Positions 12,055 to 32,137 of a DNA stretch of 32,139 bases are shown piece after piece. The position numbers and the translations under genes are program-made. Origin of the DNA: a bacterium (GTDB taxonomy: Bacteria; Patescibacteriota; Minisyncoccia; JAHIHE01; DAOWLE01); the NCBI GenBank assembly GCA_030643545.1, contig DAOWLE010000001.1, positions 1-32,139 of the forward strand, given 5' to 3'. Numbering within the stretch: the stretch's first letter is position 1; each line of letters starts with the position of its first letter. A model generated the notes under the pieces. That model did no database searches, was not told the DNA's origin, and saw only the letters and a program-made list of their open reading frames with translations.

Positions 12055-12083
12055 TTGACAAAAACTAAAATTTATGATATTAT
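12055..12083 (+). promoter_or_regulatory. Consensus-like sigma70 promoter upstream of structured leader and metallophosphatase
   Basis: TTGACA (12055-12060), 17-nt spacer, TATTAT (12078-12083). Confidence 0.75.
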
Positions 12084-12151
12084 GTAGAATAAAAAACAAA
12101 AATAGATAAAAAAACAATCAACAAAGCACTTTAAAAATTAGCACTTAATTC

Positions 12152-12336
12152 ACCTTGTTAAATCTTTTGCTAAAAGCAAAAGAAAATCTTTGATTTTATT
12201 TAACGGGGTTCACCCTATTAAATTTGCTTCGCAACTATTTAACAGGGTAAAGAGAAGGAAGAAACTTTTCGGATGGTTAAATTGTCTGACAGAAATTTAA
12301 AAATAATTACTGTTAGATAATTTAGCCGTCCGAAAA
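12152..12336 (+). promoter_or_regulatory. Structured leader or ncRNA candidate: four-arm repeat set plus 27-bp stem
   Basis: Arms ACCTTGTTAAAT (12152-12163), ATTTAACGGGGT (12198-12209), ACCCTATTAAAT (12212-12223), ATTTAACAGGGT (12237-12248); stem 12266-12292 with 12310-12336, all 27 positions pair including 4 G-U. Confidence 0.6.
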
Positions 12337-12352
12337 ATCGAATGGCTTAGGA

Positions 12353-13378
12353 GTGATAAAATTGAAAGAATATTTTTGTTTTGGGGATGCTCACTGCGCT
12401 ATAGAAAAAAGCGAAGTGAGCGATGAAAGGTTTTATCCTATGCATGTAGCAGGACTACCAGAAGAGGAAAAGGAAGATTATCTTAAATTTTTTGACGAAT
12501 TGACACAAAAAGCTTTTCAAAAACTTCTTGAACAAGCCCAGCAACTTCAACGACAAAAATCATTTGATTCTATGATTGATTTCGGAGACAACATTGCTGG
12601 AGGAGCAAACCAAGAAGGAATTAAAAGTGAAAAAGCTAAACGAGAACTGCGAAAATACTACGAATTGATTGCCAATGCTTTGCCAAAAATTCCAATATCG
12701 TTTCTTCGAAGCGGACATGTCATGGGATACAATGATCAAATTACCGAAATACAAGGACAAAAAGGCGGCAAAATGAGCATAGAAAGTTTCAATGCGGCAA
12801 AAGAATTAATCGGCAAACCATGGTTCAGTGAAAAAGTAGAAGAATTTATGCTTCTGTTTTTAGATTCGGAAACAACCAGAGAGTCAAAAAATTTCAGTAA
12901 TCCGGAACAAGATTTTTTTATTGAAAAGGCGAAAGAGCAAGAGAAATTTATTCAGGAATGTTTAGAAAACGCAAGTAGAAACAATAATAAAATAATTCTG
13001 TTCATTCACGATCCGATGCAACTCAAAGAGCTTCAAAAAACTCTAAGACCATACAAAGAAAACATTGTTCTAATCCTTGCCGGACATATACATTCGCCTG
13101 CAATTTGGAAAATTTACTGTCTTTTTTCAAAGATAGTAAAAACTTTCAAAATCAGAATACCAAAGATATTACAGAGAACGCCAAAGCAACAAGCCATACA
13201 ATCGTTAATACAAGAAATGGCAGATATGCAAGAAACAATCCGGTCATTTAACATAGAAATCATTCCGGCAATATGGGGACAAGTTGGACTTCCACAGCAA
13301 ATAATTCTTGGCCGCGGTGGATACGCCATACTGACGCTCAATAACGATCAGTTTTCTTTGACTCACTACAAGCTCTAA
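12353..13378 (+). CDS. Calcineurin-like metallophosphoesterase
   Basis: FCFGDAH, MIDFGDNIAGG, IILFIHDP, LILAGHIHSP. ORF starts at GTG 12353; TTG at 12362 has better spacing from AGGAG and may be the true start. Confidence 0.75.
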   Translation: MIKLKEYFCFGDAHCAIEKSEVSDERFYPMHVAGLPEEEKEDYLKFFDELTQKAFQKLLEQAQQLQRQKSFDSMIDFGDNIAGGANQEGIKSEKAKRELRKYYELIANALPKIPISFLRSGHVMGYNDQITEIQGQKGGKMSIESFNAAKELIGKPWFSEKVEEFMLLFLDSETTRESKNFSNPEQDFFIEKAKEQEKFIQECLENASRNNNKIILFIHDPMQLKELQKTLRPYKENIVLILAGHIHSPAIWKIYCLFSKIVKTFKIRIPKILQRTPKQQAIQSLIQEMADMQETIRSFNIEIIPAIWGQVGLPQQIILGRGGYAILTLNNDQFSLTHYKL

Positions 13379-24906: not shown

Positions 24907-26907
24907 TTATTTTGTCCATTGTGACATTATTACGCTAAAATCAACAAGATTAACATTGCCATCTTTATTTATGTCCGGACTTTTACAAGAAGTGGCTCCG
25001 GACGGATCTTTTCCCCAAAAACTCAAAAGAATTCCTGCGTCAGCTAAATTAATTTTTTCGTCGCAATTAAGATCGGCAGATAATTTTTCTTCTTCTTTCA
25101 AAAATCCTTCGCATTTATTTTGAACGCATCTACAACTATCTATAGAAGGATATCCGCAAACAGACGAAATTCCTTCAACAGCGCAAGCTTTTCTTACATA
25201 ATTAGGATCAACTTTTGCGTCTTTATTAACACATTTTGGATAATAACCACAACAGTTGTGAACATCTTTAATCGCGCAATCAAAATCTGTATTACAGGAG
25301 TAATCTATATTTAAATAATATTCATCTAAATCATATAGTACTTCTTTACAATCTTCCGGACAATTCCATTCATTTTCTTTTGTTTCGCATTCTCCATTTC
25401 CGCATACTTCGCTTGTGCAATAAGCAACGCCATTTCTGTATCCTGAAGATATTTCATACAATCCTTCGCAGCATTCGCCTTTTATGCTTGCAAATTCACG
25501 AAGAATTTCTCCATCGCCAATACAATCAGTTTCTCCCTTGCAATCTTTCGGACAATTACAAATATTTTCAGGTGATTTGCAAATTCCGTCTCCGCATTTT
25601 GTGCAAAGAGCGCTTCCATCAGTAGGCGCGACGCATCCCTCGTTATAAGAAATAGCATTCGCAATTTGCGTAAGACCCTCGCAGCAAGAAGGTTTTCCAA
25701 AATAATTCTTTTCTCCTTCTTTAGCGCAAGCTTCTGCCTTTTCACAAATGCTATAAGATCTGCTTATTCTATTTTCAATCAATCCAGAACAGCATTGCTT
25801 GTCAGTTGGACCCATAAGAGGATTGCGATTTACTTTTTCTCCTTCTTCAGCGCAATCTTCTGAAATTTTTCCTTGGCAGCAACAAGTTTTGCCTACTCCG
25901 ACTATCACTTCATCAATTCCACCAATAGTTCTAACAAGCGTACAATCAGATGTCTCTCCAATGTCTTTTTCATTTTCTTTGCATCCCCATTCAACGTCAG
26001 GAACCACTGGCCAAGTCCGGCAAATTCCAGATTTATAATTAAGAGATTTGCATTTTTCGCTACAGGTTTGTTTTTCTTCTTCACATTTCCCATTATGTTT
26101 TTTTGAAACGCCAGCAGATTGTCTTGTGCAATCATTTGAATAAGTTTTACTATCACAGCCGCATACTGGAGAGTATATCATCGCACAAATTTCCGATTTT
26201 TCTGTACATTTTCCCGGATCCTTGCATTTTCCTTCTGGAAATTCACAGAATTGATTTCCATTACAATCTTTATTAGAATAACAATCTTCTTCTTCCGTTT
26301 CTGCGCATTTATACGCGCATTGGGAAAGGTTAATTGGATCATTTTTAAAATCTTCTGAACATTTTTCAACGCAGGATTTACAATCTTCAAATTTTTTATT
26401 TTGAACTAATTGGCATTTGCCGTTAATAATTTCGCATTTAGCATATTGTCTACACCCATCGCCAATCATATAAATTTCGGTGCACCCATCTGGAATATTT
26501 GACCCGCAAGTTATATCAAGTCCATGGCAATTTTCTATTCCGCATTTTTCTTCTTGTGTTTTTTCGCAATTATCATACTTTATCAATTTTCCATCGCAGG
26601 AACTATACCAACCCTCTGATCTTGAACCAATCGCTTTGCAAACCGCGGAACACCCTTTACAATTATCCCATCTGATCAATTCTGGTCTGTCAAAATTAGA
26701 ATTAATATACCAGCCCTCGCTCCTGCTTCCTATGGCGCCACAATAAGGTTTTCCTTCTTCAGTTGGAATAACGCTTATCTTAGTGCCCGAAAACTCTATA
26801 TAAGCGTAGATTAAAGTCGTAGCAAAAATAATTGCCGCTAATCCAATAAGGATTAAATAAATTTTGTTTTTGCTTAAATTTTTTATGCTTGCCTTAAAAG
26901 TTTCCAT
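24907..26907 (-). CDS. Membrane-anchored Cys-rich protein with Kazal-like module and C-terminal dockerin
   Basis: N-terminal TM (IYLILIGLAAIIFATTLIYAYI); two AIGSRSEGWY repeats; Kazal-like module; two CGxGxCxxxENxxNCPxDCK repeats; terminal dockerin. Confidence 0.93.
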   Translation of the reverse strand: METFKASIKNLSKNKIYLILIGLAAIIFATTLIYAYIEFSGTKISVIPTEEGKPYCGAIGSRSEGWYINSNFDRPELIRWDNCKGCSAVCKAIGSRSEGWYSSCDGKLIKYDNCEKTQEEKCGIENCHGLDITCGSNIPDGCTEIYMIGDGCRQYAKCEIINGKCQLVQNKKFEDCKSCVEKCSEDFKNDPINLSQCAYKCAETEEEDCYSNKDCNGNQFCEFPEGKCKDPGKCTEKSEICAMIYSPVCGCDSKTYSNDCTRQSAGVSKKHNGKCEEEKQTCSEKCKSLNYKSGICRTWPVVPDVEWGCKENEKDIGETSDCTLVRTIGGIDEVIVGVGKTCCCQGKISEDCAEEGEKVNRNPLMGPTDKQCCSGLIENRISRSYSICEKAEACAKEGEKNYFGKPSCCEGLTQIANAISYNEGCVAPTDGSALCTKCGDGICKSPENICNCPKDCKGETDCIGDGEILREFASIKGECCEGLYEISSGYRNGVAYCTSEVCGNGECETKENEWNCPEDCKEVLYDLDEYYLNIDYSCNTDFDCAIKDVHNCCGYYPKCVNKDAKVDPNYVRKACAVEGISSVCGYPSIDSCRCVQNKCEGFLKEEEKLSADLNCDEKINLADAGILLSFWGKDPSGATSCKSPDINKDGNVNLVDFSVIMSQWTK
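24910..25077 (-). other. Type-I-like dockerin module, copy 1
   Basis: ADLNCDEKINLADAGILLSFWGKDPSGATSCKSPDINKDGNVNLVDFSVIMSQWTK: two DxNxDGxxNxxD-type loops (one degenerate). Confidence 0.93.
26083..26208 (-). other. Kazal-type serine protease inhibitor-like module
   Basis: CTEKSEICAMIYSPVCGCDSKTYSNDCTRQSAGVSKKHNGKC: six Cys with VCGCDxKTYxNxC signature. Confidence 0.85.
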
Positions 26908-26935
26908 AAATTTTTCTTTTTTTTATGTTTTGGTT

Positions 26936-26962
26936 AAAAGCGGCACGTTGTGTGCCGCTTTT
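26936..26962. terminator. Hairpin between two dockerin genes
   Basis: AAAAGCGGCAC-gttgt-GTGCCGCTTTT; 11-bp stem, modest T-run on the minus strand. Confidence 0.6.
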
Positions 26963-27001
26963 AAAAAAAATAACAAATATTCATAAACTATTAATTTATA
27001 A

Positions 27002-28309
27002 CTAAAACGCAGCCCATTGCGACATCATTATGCTAAAATCAGTAAGGTTAACATCACCGTCTTGATTTATATCCGGACTTTGACAGGAAGCAGCTCCGGA
27101 TGGATCTTTCCCCCAAAAACTCATCAAAATTGCCGAGTCAGTCAGATTAACGCTTCCGTCGCAATTAAGATCAGCTGAAGAAAAAGACCCATCATTCTTT
27201 TTTTCTGCTCCAATAATTGTAACCGGCTCACTTGAAGCATATTTATAAATGTAGATATCATCTATCCATAATTTTACGTATGTCAATAAATTAGTATTTT
27301 TGCACTCGCGGTATTCACGACAGTCTGTCCCATAACACTTCAAGTAATTATCGTAGAAATCCTCATTCTCGCAGTAATATTTAATTTCTTTATATCCTTC
27401 AGGACAAAGAGGAGCGTCATCATTTGGCACATAATAATTTAAACATGGACATTGATTTCCTTTACATGTACATCCTTCGCAATCGTTATAACTTGCCTGA
27501 CTACTTTTTATTATTGTATCTTCACATCCCTTTGCATAACTATAAAGTTTTAATTTTAAATCATTTCCTGAAATTCTATACTTTTTATCGGTAAATTCTT
27601 GATAAGAAGAGGAATCTAAAATTGTTTCTTTGTTCTCATTATCTACGAATTTTAATTCATATTTATAATCACAATCTTTATATTTTTTAGAACTTTCATT
27701 TTTTAATTTCAGATTAACTTTAAAATCACCCGAGCCAATTACATTTGATACTAAACTTGAAAAAACTTCGCCAATACCTGTTTGGGAAACATGAATATAT
27801 CCTGTATTTGATGTTGAATATTCCTGACCGCTTCCTATCCATTTATCTGAACCATCTTTAAAATCATCAAAAAATTCAAAAGTTTTTTCTCCCTTGCTGA
27901 CAGATTGAGCGGAAGAGTTGCCGTAATACATATAAATTGTTGTTCCAGAAATTGAAATAAAAGGAACTTTTACCCAAATTTTCGTATCAGGAGAATTACA
28001 TCCAGATTCAATCCAATAATTTAATTCGGTTTTTCCATCAGAATCAGTAAATCTAAAATCTCCGCAATCTAAAGACATTTTTCCGTCTGACATTAAAACA
28101 GCCGTATCAACAGTCATTGAAACCTGAAAATCAGCCAAAACAGAAGGTGATCCGCTGATATTAATTGGCTTTCTATAATTCCAATCAGCATCATACCAAT
28201 TAGATGAACTTTCAGCTTGAATTTCAGTTCTAAAATTCAAATCTACTGAATTAAAATTCCAGCTAAAAAACAAAACTACTATTAATATTATTTTTGGAAT
28301 TGATTTCAT
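27002..28309 (-). CDS. Secreted protein with DUF2341-like domain and C-terminal dockerin
   Basis: Signal-peptide-like N-terminus; WYDADWNYRKPINISG...IWVKVPFISISGTTIYMYYGNSSAQSVSKGEKTFEFFDDF; terminal dockerin. Confidence 0.92.
   Translation of the reverse strand: MKSIPKIILIVVLFFSWNFNSVDLNFRTEIQAESSSNWYDADWNYRKPINISGSPSVLADFQVSMTVDTAVLMSDGKMSLDCGDFRFTDSDGKTELNYWIESGCNSPDTKIWVKVPFISISGTTIYMYYGNSSAQSVSKGEKTFEFFDDFKDGSDKWIGSGQEYSTSNTGYIHVSQTGIGEVFSSLVSNVIGSGDFKVNLKLKNESSKKYKDCDYKYELKFVDNENKETILDSSSYQEFTDKKYRISGNDLKLKLYSYAKGCEDTIIKSSQASYNDCEGCTCKGNQCPCLNYYVPNDDAPLCPEGYKEIKYYCENEDFYDNYLKCYGTDCREYRECKNTNLLTYVKLWIDDIYIYKYASSEPVTIIGAEKKNDGSFSSADLNCDGSVNLTDSAILMSFWGKDPSGAASCQSPDINQDGDVNLTDFSIMMSQWAAF
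27005..27175 (-). other. Type-I-like dockerin module, copy 2
   Basis: ADLNCDGSVNLTDSAILMSFWGKDPSGAASCQSPDINQDGDVNLTDFSIMMSQWAAF. Confidence 0.95.
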
Positions 28310-28327
28310 ATAAACTAATATTACTTT

Positions 28328-29845
28328 TTAGTAAAATGCTATTTCTGTCCATTGGGACATCATTATCGCTAAATCAGCAAGATCAACATCGCCATCTTGA
28401 TCTATATCCGGACTTTGGCAGGAATCAAATCCAAAAGGATCTTTATGCCAAAAACTCATTAAAATTGCATCGTCAGTTAAATTAACACTTCCATTGCAAT
28501 TAAGATCAGCAGTTTGATAAACAGCGCTGCCTTCACAAGCGACTGAACAACAAATTCCGCTTCCAGAATGCGTTAAAGATATTCCCGGACAAGTTTCATT
28601 TGCTTGGCAGATAAATCCGCTTGGTTCATATTCAGAACAGCTGCAATCTGGATCGCCGGTTGGACATCCAAATGTTTTGCATTTGCCGTCTGCTTCGCAG
28701 GTTGCCGGACAATTATTTTCCGGAGAATCTATACAAGCCCATTTATAATTATCGCAGGTGCACCAATCGACTTCAGTTCCGTCCGGACAACTATGTTTCT
28801 TTGTTTCTCCTAGATTACATTCTTTTGAAATAGCGGTAAAATTTATATTATTCATATTAGTTGTAGCACAACCTTTAGGAATAGTTATCGTATGAGAAAT
28901 TGGAGAAAAAATATAATTATTGTTTGATGGAGTAATTGTATAAGAACCATCATTTAAAGTAGAAAAAGAATAATTTCCAGAACTATCAGTGGCTGTTGAT
29001 GCTGAAGAATCTCCAGCAAGATTTATAGTTATTCCTGATAATCCGCTATTATCTTTCAAAACTTTACCTGAAATAGAATAAACTGCCGCTGGCGTACAAG
29101 CGACTGAACAGCAAGTTCCGCCTCCAGAATGTATTAAGGATGTTCCCGAACAAGTTTCATTTGTTTGGCAAATATCGCCTCCTTGTTGAGAGCACGCGCA
29201 ATCCGGATCGCCATTAGGACATCCTGGATATTTGCATTTGCCGTCTGCTTCGCATTTCGGCTCTGGCTCTCCTTGCACGCAAGCTCCATTTTTACAAATC
29301 ATATTTTGGCCGTACCGAGAACATGAATATCCAGATGAAGAATCAGAAGCTCTTTTTGCTACGCCACTTTGGCAAAAATATTCAACAATTGAATTTCCAA
29401 CACAATAATCTGTGTATGAATGAGAATTATCTTTTGCTGTACCTTTTCTCATTACATTTATTCCTCCGTCAGAATCTGTGCAAGCAGGAGTCGGCGGAGT
29501 TGTTCCTCTTACGCAAGCTCCATTTGCGCAGCCATTTGGACATTTAAAATTTGTCATGCCATGACCGTTTGCAGCACAATAATACTCCATTACATTATCT
29601 TTATAACCTCCAGTCATACAATAATCTGTAAGTTTTGTTCCGTCACTAAGAGTTATAGTTCCTTTTTGATAATAATTTTTACCGCCGTCATTGTCTGTGC
29701 AAACCGACGCTCCTGGCCCTATAATCAAACCTCTTAAATAACTTTCATACCCAATAAGCATCACACTGAAAACAATTACCGCAGTCAATCCTAAAACCAT
29801 CAAAATTGTTTTAGGTTTTTTAAAATTTTCAATAATAAAATTCAT
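28328..29845 (-). CDS. Membrane-anchored Cys-rich protein with CarboxypepD_reg-like domain and C-terminal dockerin
   Basis: N-terminal TM; paired Cys-rich repeats (CTDxDGG...DYC...EYxC...NGACVxG and CEADGKCK..GCP.GDPDC.C...CCSVAC); SISGKVLKDNSGLSGITINLAGDSSASTATDSSGNYSFSTLNDGSYTITPS; terminal dockerin. Confidence 0.92.
   Translation of the reverse strand: MNFIIENFKKPKTILMVLGLTAVIVFSVMLIGYESYLRGLIIGPGASVCTDNDGGKNYYQKGTITLSDGTKLTDYCMTGGYKDNVMEYYCAANGHGMTNFKCPNGCANGACVRGTTPPTPACTDSDGGINVMRKGTAKDNSHSYTDYCVGNSIVEYFCQSGVAKRASDSSSGYSCSRYGQNMICKNGACVQGEPEPKCEADGKCKYPGCPNGDPDCACSQQGGDICQTNETCSGTSLIHSGGGTCCSVACTPAAVYSISGKVLKDNSGLSGITINLAGDSSASTATDSSGNYSFSTLNDGSYTITPSNNNYIFSPISHTITIPKGCATTNMNNINFTAISKECNLGETKKHSCPDGTEVDWCTCDNYKWACIDSPENNCPATCEADGKCKTFGCPTGDPDCSCSEYEPSGFICQANETCPGISLTHSGSGICCSVACEGSAVYQTADLNCNGSVNLTDDAILMSFWHKDPFGFDSCQSPDIDQDGDVDLADLAIMMSQWTEIAFY
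28331..28510 (-). other. Type-I-like dockerin module, copy 3
   Basis: ADLNCNGSVNLTDDAILMSFWHKDPFGFDSCQSPDIDQDGDVDLADLAIMMSQWTEIAFY. Confidence 0.94.
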
Positions 29846-29874
29846 ATTTTTTATTTTTAATGATATTTTATTTT

Positions 29875-30786
29875 TTACTCTTTAGTTGCTTTGCCACTCG
29901 GTACCCATCCTTTTTTATAGGCAAAATAAATTGTTGCCGCCAAAATTCCGATAATAATTAAAGCGGAAGTTGCCGGACCGGTTGTCGGAGCAGTTACCGC
30001 AATAATTTCTGAGCAGGAAGAAGTCGCTCCATCATTATCAGTTAAACTTAATACCGCCGTATAAGTTCCGGCAGCGGTATACGTATGTTTAACATTAGGT
30101 CCGCCAGTTGCCGGTGAGCTGTCACCAAAATTCCAACTATTAGAAGTAATTGTTCCGTCTGGATCAGTAGAGCCAGCAGTAGAAAAAGAAACAGTCAAAG
30201 GCGCTGCGCCGGAAATTGGATCAGCGTTAATAATACAGACAGGAGGAACAATATCTGCGCTTGTTATTGTATAACTGCCATTTTTGACCGAGCTAAGAAT
30301 ATCAGTTCCTTTTCCATCATCTAAAAGTATATCGGAATCAGTGCCAGATATTCCAATCCCGTCTATTATAAAATCAACTTTGGTCGGAGAAGCAGGAGAT
30401 AACGCTTTAAAATTAATCGTTGCTACATTACCGTTAGCCGTATTTATTCCCGGAGTTGGTTTGGTGCGCGAAATCTTAATTTTTCCAGCATTGGAATCAA
30501 AAATTTTCTCAGCTTCCATAGTAAGAATAGATTTTGAAGTGTCAATATCAATTACTTGCAACTTTGTCGCGTCATAAGTTAAATACGCTCCTACGGCAAC
30601 TACATTTTGACTGTTTGTATTTACTAAAACATCAATACTGAATGTTTCTCCAATACCCACTGTTTTAGTTGAAGGAGAGAGTGAAAGTTCAGCGTTTGCC
30701 CCGGCTTGAGCTGGAACTATCGCTATTGCTCCAAGTAAAATTAAAGATAGAGATAGAGCAAAGATTTTTTTCTTAATACTTTTCAT
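29875..30786 (-). CDS. Cohesin-PKD protein with signal peptide and C-terminal membrane anchor
   Basis: Signal peptide MKSIKKKIFALSLSLILLGAIAIVPAQA; cohesin; PKD; TM SALIIIGILAATIYFAYKKGW; SD AAGGAAA upstream. Confidence 0.93.
   Translation of the reverse strand: MKSIKKKIFALSLSLILLGAIAIVPAQAGANAELSLSPSTKTVGIGETFSIDVLVNTNSQNVVAVGAYLTYDATKLQVIDIDTSKSILTMEAEKIFDSNAGKIKISRTKPTPGINTANGNVATINFKALSPASPTKVDFIIDGIGISGTDSDILLDDGKGTDILSSVKNGSYTITSADIVPPVCIINADPISGAAPLTVSFSTAGSTDPDGTITSNSWNFGDSSPATGGPNVKHTYTAAGTYTAVLSLTDNDGATSSCSEIIAVTAPTTGPATSALIIIGILAATIYFAYKKGWVPSGKATKE
29992..30246 (-). other. PKD domain
   Basis: PVCIINADPISGAAPLTVSFSTAGSTDPDGTITSNSWNFGDSSPATGGPNVKHTYTAAGTYTAVLSLTDNDGATSS. Confidence 0.93.
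30265..30690 (-). other. Cohesin domain
   Basis: ELSLSPSTKTVGIGETFSIDVLVNTNSQNVVAVGAYLTYDATKLQVIDIDTSKS...GKIKISRTKPTPGINTANGNVATINFKALSPASPTKVDF. Confidence 0.88.
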
Positions 30787-30877
30787 AATGTTTTTCCTTT
30801 CAAAAGTTTATTTTTTAAATTAGCAATAAACTTTTTTTTAATTAAATTAATTAAATTTGAGTTAATATATTAAAATT

Positions 30878-32137
30878 TTATTTAAAAGTATAGTTCCAAT
30901 AAGACATCATTATGCTAAAATCAGCAAGATTAACCTTGCCGTCTTGGTTTATGTCCGGGCTTTGGCAAGAAGTAAATCCAGATGGATTTTGATTCCAAAA
31001 GCTCAAAAGAATTGCAACATCAACTAAATTAATATTTCCGTCGCAATTAAGATCAATAGCGACTGGAGAAATACTTCCTGTTTTCGCATCTTGAATAATT
31101 TCTATATAAAGTCCTGAAGAACTTTTATTTGCTTCAATACTTTTAATGATATCATTTTCTTCTGAAAGCTTGTAATTCGGATCATTTATTCTTTGATTGC
31201 TAATATGCACTTTTAATACAGATGCCGCTTCTGACGGCGTTAAATTATACTCCTCGGCGACTTTATTTATCATTGAAATATAATATTCCACTTCATTAAG
31301 AGTAATAGAGCGAATTACTTCTCTAATATTTTCATCAGTTACTATCAATCCTTTATCAACAATCGCCAGTCCCAGTGCCAGTACTATCATTTCCTCGCTA
31401 ATATTTGTTCCAATTTCATTTTTAAATTCTTCTGCTTTATTTTGAATAATTTCCTCTTTTTCTTTTGCATAATAAGTTGGGATAGGATCACTACTAACCC
31501 AGTAAGTAGCAGATTCTAACGCAGCGCTAGAAATTTCAACTATTCCTTCTACGCTTCCCATATGACTTCCTCCGCCCATATGAGCTCCTGGCTGCCATCC
31601 AGTTGACATAGAAAGCCAATCATCGCTTCCCACATAACCGCCTTGAGCAATATAAGGTTCGCCAGGGCATGAACCAACTAAATAACTTAGTCGCGTATGA
31701 TTAGCTCCAACCATATTTCCTCCCATAGAAGCTATTTCAGCAGCTTTTACTGCTTCATTCATTGACATTCCCCAATCTCCAGAAGACGGCATTACAGTTG
31801 GCGGATTTCCTCCCCAAACATCTGACCACCATTTTGGAGATTGTTGGATAGAAGCTGAAGTTTCAAAAGCTGAATTGCCGGTTACATTTGTCGTAGCGTT
31901 TCCCATAAAACTTCCTCCACCTATATGAGCTCCGGGCTGCCATCCATCTGACATAGAAAGCCAATCATCGCTTTCACTATAACCGCCTTCAGCAATATAA
32001 GATTCGCCAGGACATGAACCAACTAAATAACTTTTCCTTGCTTGCATAACAGGATTTGTCATACCTCCGATAGAAGCTAATTCAGCAGCTTTTACTGCTT
32101 CATTCATTGACATTCCCCAATCTCCAGAAGACGGCAT
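30878..32137 (-). CDS. Tandem-repeat protein with C-terminal dockerin; N-terminus lies beyond the window
   Basis: 419-aa ORF open to the window end; begins inside a 115-aa repeat, so the first Met is probably internal; terminal dockerin. Confidence 0.88.
   Translation of the reverse strand: MPSSGDWGMSMNEAVKAAELASIGGMTNPVMQARKSYLVGSCPGESYIAEGGYSESDDWLSMSDGWQPGAHIGGGSFMGNATTNVTGNSAFETSASIQQSPKWWSDVWGGNPPTVMPSSGDWGMSMNEAVKAAEIASMGGNMVGANHTRLSYLVGSCPGEPYIAQGGYVGSDDWLSMSTGWQPGAHMGGGSHMGSVEGIVEISSAALESATYWVSSDPIPTYYAKEKEEIIQNKAEEFKNEIGTNISEEMIVLALGLAIVDKGLIVTDENIREVIRSITLNEVEYYISMINKVAEEYNLTPSEAASVLKVHISNQRINDPNYKLSEENDIIKSIEANKSSSGLYIEIIQDAKTGSISPVAIDLNCDGNINLVDVAILLSFWNQNPSGFTSCQSPDINQDGKVNLADFSIMMSYWNYTFK
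30881..31057 (-). other. Type-I-like dockerin module, copy 4
   Basis: IDLNCDGNINLVDVAILLSFWNQNPSGFTSCQSPDINQDGKVNLADFSIMMSYWNYTFK. Confidence 0.95.

Follow-up and report, generated by a model that had tools for sequence, protein, structure and literature searches.

The window, by which we mean the whole 32,139-nucleotide stretch of DNA analysed here, belongs to an 845-kb genome (G000; 45 contigs, 95% complete) whose contig sequence as analysed has short overlaps and lacks about a hundred bases. Between a sigma-70-type promoter and a same-strand open reading frame, the window contains a long hairpin (Table 1). All 27 positions of its stem are paired, including four G-U and eight G-C pairs, and the loop is 17 nt. 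This is exactly the fully paired stem with four G-U pairs that an earlier note on this DNA had described, and the promoter, which that note called good, deserves the description. A gap of 12 nt separates the stem from the Shine-Dalgarno sequence AGGAG, which lies outside it. This sequence and the start codon, either TTG 12362 or GTG 12353, come after the stem, which the note had likewise placed upstream of the start codon, and a transcript from the promoter would extend for about 260 nt ahead of the ORF.

Table 1. Features of the window leader and locations of related elements (locations without a prefix are window positions)
Feature	Location	Strand	Remarks
Sigma-70-type promoter TTGACA-N17-TATTAT	12055..12083	+	11/12 consensus positions; TG before -10
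Degenerate boxA-like element GCACTTTAAAAA	12126..12137	+	Two mismatches to GTTCTTTNAAAA; weak on its own
L020-like leader segment	12129..12151 joined to 12249-12262	+	Aligns with L020 leader
REP-like palindromic repeat copy 1 (ACCTTGTTAAAT...ATTTAACGGGGT)	12152..12209	+	Dispersed family in genome; probably inserted
REP-like palindromic repeat copy 2 (ACCCTATTAAAT...ATTTAACAGGGT)	12212..12248	+	Dispersed family in genome
Hairpin left arm	12266..12292	+	Stem-pairing search of sequence
Hairpin loop, 17 nt	12293..12309	+	4 loop bases may pair further
Hairpin right arm	12310..12336	+	Stem-pairing search of sequence
Shine-Dalgarno AGGAG	12349..12353	+	Read in sequence; 8 nt 5' of TTG 12362
ORF, divergent calcineurin-like phosphoesterase	12362..13378	+	TTG start; GTG 12353 also possible
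REP-like copies elsewhere	L032:10964-11026; L031:18023-18085; L027:11200-11263; L030:13413-13473; L051:19230-19293; L063:1973-2030; L020:5239-5281
Near-identical leaders of genome G018	L170:2338 and 8978; L171:19541	-

A stem of this length is far more than chance would give. Among the uninterrupted stems of the genome (loop up to 60, strand as read) it ranks joint second in length, whereas the longest such stem in simulated genomes was 19 bp at most (4 replicates, second-order Markov), and folding of 12152-12400 gives z = -8.9. In Rfam searches of the window only tRNA reaches the cut-off; the stem has sub-threshold matches to generic hairpins and no riboswitch match.

The interval given in the earlier note, 12152-12336, holds the hairpin at 12266-12336 and, at 12152-12248, something else. 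There a dispersed palindromic repeat is present in two tandem copies. It belongs to a REP-like family in which outer arms ACCCTGTTAAAT / ATTTAACAGGGT enclose one or two variable hairpins, and of which the genome has roughly eight more paired copies at other sites. The repeat does not include the 27-bp stem. The two copies were probably inserted later between the window boxA and the stem.

The downstream gene was called a metallophosphatase. Its product has a weak calcineurin-like match that falls below the Pfam cut-off (Metallophos, E 0.0076), but the usual metal-binding motifs FGDAH, DFGDN, HD and GHIH are readable in it, and a distant homologue (L069, 28% identity) passes the cut-off. All homologues found are distant (24-29% identity). 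The leader of the nearest, L069, is of an ordinary operon type and has no comparable stem; this is the outcome, at a distant homologue, of the check proposed in the earlier note on whether homologues lack the stem. No orthologous window leader was found, so there is no covariation for the window stem itself.

Elsewhere in the window, the minus strand at 24907-32137 carries a series of genes for secreted proteins with type I dockerin domains, along with one for a cohesin + PKD protein (29875-30786). This cohesin/dockerin set is cellulosome-like, although the genome is very small.

Leaders with a boxA-like motif and a long hairpin

A census of stems in the genome turned up a recurring arrangement in which a same-strand ORF closely follows a fully paired stem of 20-32 bp that includes several G-U pairs. 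Many such stems are themselves preceded by a promoter and by the motif GTTCTTTNAAAA, giving a common layout of promoter, boxA-like GTTCTTTNAAAA, long hairpin of unrelated sequence, Shine-Dalgarno and ORF. Intergenic copies of GTTCTTTNAAAA are upstream of a same-strand ORF in 16 of 17 cases, compared to 0.83 per permuted control motif, and a strong hairpin follows the motif in 14 of those 16. The hairpin sequences are unrelated; what the class members have in common is pairing. With an automatic definition of leaders, 12/12 motif leaders had a minimum free energy of -20 kcal/mol or lower, as did 28% of the 298 other leaders (Fisher p = 5e-7). Uninterrupted stems of 13 bp or more were present in 8/12 motif leaders and 10% of the others; the own-genome p-values do not come from independent data, since the motif was first noticed in this same genome.

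The motif GTTCTTTNAAAA fits the boxA consensus GYTCTTTAANA, which was published for gamma-proteobacteria (PMC5725501). Its distance to the -10 element varies, and thus it is more likely an RNA element than part of the promoter. The leader of the genome's own 16S rRNA has a promoter, the motif and a 24-bp stem upstream of a canonical boxA, GTTCTTTCACAA. The folds of 18 hairpin leaders from the genome contain 87 G-U pairs, compared to 6 A-C one-by-one mismatches. The mRNA strand is more stable than its complement in 16 of these 18, a comparison that is somewhat biased because segments were chosen on the sense strand and G-U was allowed in folding, but whose direction agrees with the covariation described below.

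In only a few leaders (e.g., L120, L128 and L133) does boxA adjoin the Shine-Dalgarno. We also considered the possibility that the hairpins bring boxA unusually close to the Shine-Dalgarno. The unpaired distances do look short, but dinucleotide shuffles are equally compact, and we rejected this idea.

Among the recognizable products of genes downstream of the motif leaders are an adenylosuccinate lyase superfamily lyase, an OMP decarboxylase-type protein, a distant nicotinate phosphoribosyltransferase, a TFIIB-repeat protein and a winged-helix protein. The majority of the downstream genes have no Pfam match, and no common pathway is evident among them. The TFIIB-repeat protein (L019:6610-7221, plus strand; Pfam TFIIB E 1.9e-34) is an archaeal/eukaryotic-type transcription factor and might reflect contamination of the bin; its gene has GTTCTTTTAAAA upstream, without a hairpin.

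Two other sets of structured elements deserve mention in their own right. Two homologous stems of 25-32 bp (L013:14987-15058 and L032:10164-10233, on opposite strands) have TATARGCATTTTTTTGTGGAACTTTTATGTCAGT in common, are not clearly in leaders and could be a separate repeat or RNA. Two similar leaders on the plus strand of L062 (16150-16320 and 17780-17930) each contain a hairpin (TAATGAATTAAGRTTCTAAA...), then ACAAGGGTGG, then a small hairpin; they recall the T-box antiterminator element and precede unrelated-looking small ORFs.

Counts from other genomes are independent tests of the class. Within the same order but outside the genome of the window (families f3 and f4), 5 of 5 promoter-linked copies of the motif are followed by a long hairpin, a Shine-Dalgarno and an ORF. 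In genome G018 the motif is upstream of ORFs six times, compared to 0.29 per control. Three of the six have a long hairpin after the motif. The other three, which are near-identical (Table 1), have GTTCTTTTAAAA immediately after a short hairpin (about GGCTAAATAG...CTATTTAGCC), with a Shine-Dalgarno close behind each. In the wider class most matches to the pattern are inside ORFs and without hairpins, and the combination of intergenic motif and long stem occurs in several families (L121, L126, L129 and L130), with homologous genes downstream in L121 and L130. Records named Patescibacteria group bacterium and Candidatus Nomurabacteria have the pattern too; together with the small size of the genome that holds the window, they are the grounds for reading that genome as Patescibacteria-type.

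The covariation comes from ten leaders of different genomes that are orthologous to one another, with L121 among them. Their stem of 23 pairs is kept, with 95.1% of cells paired and 10 pairs changed on both sides. Covariation is 0.43, compared to 0.24 in shuffles; none of 500 shuffles scored as high, and no slid version of the alignment came near. The boxA-like element itself is altered in several of the ten (e.g., GTTCATTGAAAA). The 16S leaders of class relatives were dropped as a second covariation set, since most of them are without motif and stem. Based on these computations, we conclude that the leader class exists, that a hairpin accompanies the boxA-like motif, that the signal is on the mRNA strand, and that selection maintains the pairing in at least one set of orthologous leaders.

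The window leader and its possible control

The window leader has several attributes of this class: a long hairpin that is paired almost throughout and has its wobbles on the mRNA strand (here 27/27 pairs, 4 of them G-U), a sigma-70-type promoter upstream, and a Shine-Dalgarno and same-strand ORF downstream. Its boxA is degenerate. GCACTTTAAAAA is the only such match in the leader, and a match of this grade also occurs in 4.4% of shuffles of 12090-12151 and in 30% of shuffles of the whole leader. When the REP copies are set aside, however, the remaining segment aligns locally with the leader of L020, a clear member with both a hairpin and a perfect boxA. The alignment score is 41, none of 300 shuffles scored as high (16 leaders compared), and CTTTAAAAAT, GCACTTAAT, AGAGAAG and AGAAA are shared in the same order. 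On the strength of this alignment, we read the window leader as probably a diverged member of the class, with a degenerate boxA and two inserted REP copies.

The earlier note took the four wobbles as a sign of plus-strand RNA. If all changes are transitions, a decaying palindrome has a chance of about 1 in 16 of showing only G-U differences on a given strand, so the wobbles by themselves are weak evidence. The strand bias of the other leaders and the covariation are what mainly support reading the stem as a cis-element that acts as plus-strand RNA.

We give a probability of about one half to the following interpretation, drawn by analogy with known systems: the hairpin is in the 5' leader of the phosphoesterase mRNA, this leader is a diverged member of the class with boxA and a long hairpin, and it is under Nus-factor/boxA and RNase III control. 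NusB and S10 (NusE) would load on boxA, and the leader would thereby be held to RNA polymerase. The Nus complex could then act across the structured stretch up to the Shine-Dalgarno, affecting either translation initiation or termination. The stem might serve as a spacer or as a site for RNase III, and cleavage there would separate boxA from the Shine-Dalgarno and reset expression. Control like that of lambda N or suhB is favoured because the genome encodes NusB and RNase III, because the 211 nt from the window boxA to the Shine-Dalgarno are nearly all structured, and because the 27-bp stem exceeds the minimum duplex size of RNase III, roughly 22 nt (PMC5371410), which makes it a candidate substrate. 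Against this reading stand the two mismatches in the window boxA, the absence of covariation for the window stem, the leader of the nearest homologue of the gene, and the 16S leaders of class relatives, most of which are without motif and stem.

The stem length and the presence of the enzyme also fit a simpler role, the main rival of control like that of lambda N or suhB. The stem might be only an element of RNA processing or stability, with no Nus role in the window, that RNase III trims or that as a duplex shields the transcript from decay at the 5' end. The weakness of the window boxA and the free sequence of the hairpins, in which only pairing is kept, also point this way. Such a role leaves unexplained the association of long hairpins with GTTCTTTNAAAA and the similarity of the window leader to a boxA leader, and we consider it less likely.

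We think it improbable that the stem is an RNA switch of another type, whether one that hides translation signals, one that responds to a ligand or to temperature, or one that acts together with a short leader peptide. There are comparable leaders in which the Shine-Dalgarno is inside the stem: in L030:19408-19453 and L051:9932-9984 a stem of 21-24 bp contains the Shine-Dalgarno AAAGGAGGT, and the arm with this sequence is alike in both, whereas the other arm differs and yet pairs. In the window, the Shine-Dalgarno is outside the stem, which is simple and fully paired, without a pocket or an alternative fold. No intrinsic terminator was found between stem and ORF on either strand, and the lack of a riboswitch match in Rfam also speaks against a switch. 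A 16-codon open frame, MVKLSDRNLKIITVR (12273-12320), does span the stem. We rejected it as a leader peptide, as it has no close Shine-Dalgarno and as the alignment of the covarying leader family keeps the pairing and not the ATG inside the stem.

The stem could also matter as DNA, either as a mobile REP/MITE-like insertion or as a site for protein binding, with RNA folding incidental. Two REP-like palindromes lie directly upstream, and the stem census found other long DNA palindromes in the genome. The stem itself, however, occurs once in G000 and was not matched in any of 386 genomes from its class, and no convincing copies were found in phages, plasmids or viral contigs. Multiple dispersed copies, as expected of a REP-like or mobile repeat, were found for the neighbouring 12152-12248 and not for the stem. 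Thus a palindrome scattered at unrelated sites, which the earlier note had named as evidence against its proposal, was looked for in the genome and its 386 relatives and did not appear. In addition, the arm differences are all G-U on the mRNA strand, a bias that comparable leaders share, and we regard a DNA-level role as very improbable. Least probable is the separate ncRNA that the earlier note offered beside a cis-regulator: the good promoter and the transcript of about 260 nt before the ORF would suit a small RNA, but there is no terminator between stem and ORF, a Shine-Dalgarno and start codon follow directly, and comparable leaders run into their ORFs, all of which leaves the plus-strand cis-element as the supported part of that proposal.

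Relation to known systems

Gene regulation in Patescibacteria has been little studied. Neither the window leader nor the related ones fall under any Rfam family, and in the open-access literature we found no paper on this leader class and work on boxA only in other bacteria. Leaders controlled by boxA are a known kind; those combining boxA with a hairpin of free sequence in Patescibacteria seem to be an undescribed variant. We speculate, tentatively, that such leaders are widespread in Patescibacteria-type genomes, that in this lineage they share their elements with the rRNA leader, and that they place mostly uncharacterised genes under joint control by Nus factors and RNase III.

If the class does tie cellular genes to the Nus and RNase III machinery of rRNA, it would offer a handle on a patescibacterial regulon, extend boxA control of mRNAs well beyond the gamma-proteobacteria, and represent a counterpart, among cellular genes, to the leader of lambda N. 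The signature of GTTCTTTNAAAA, a long hairpin and a Shine-Dalgarno could be a simple aid in annotating other genomes.

The window leader is most like the lambda leader composed of PL, nutL, an RNase III stem and N. In both, a boxA about 200 nt upstream is followed by structured RNA with a stem for RNase III (a candidate one in the window) and then by the ORF. In lambda, structured RNA fills the roughly 200 nt by which nutL precedes N (PMC5725501). Cleavage of the stem in the lambda nutL-N leader by RNase III reportedly relieves repression (Wilson 2002). Unlike in lambda, the stem sequences here vary freely, the genes are cellular, the genome is not that of a phage, and the regulation is a prediction. 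The lambda nut site also has the boxB hairpin, which is bound by an N-like protein; no boxB was identified here, and the hairpins are far longer than boxB.

The suhB leader of E. coli and other mRNA boxA sites provide a second parallel. In suhB, a Nus complex loaded on boxA represses translation (PMC5725501). The consensus GYTCTTTAANA for such sites fits GTTCTTTAAAA, and they too are in leaders of cellular genes (PMC5725501). However, the boxA of suhB is 6 nt from the Shine-Dalgarno with no long hairpin between them, whereas in the class described here a long hairpin is the rule. Lastly, bacterial rRNA leaders combine boxA with a long duplex, and the 16S leader of this genome carries the same set of promoter, boxA-like element and stem. 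The processing stem of pre-rRNA pairs the flanks of 16S, in contrast to the local hairpin that precedes the ORF here.
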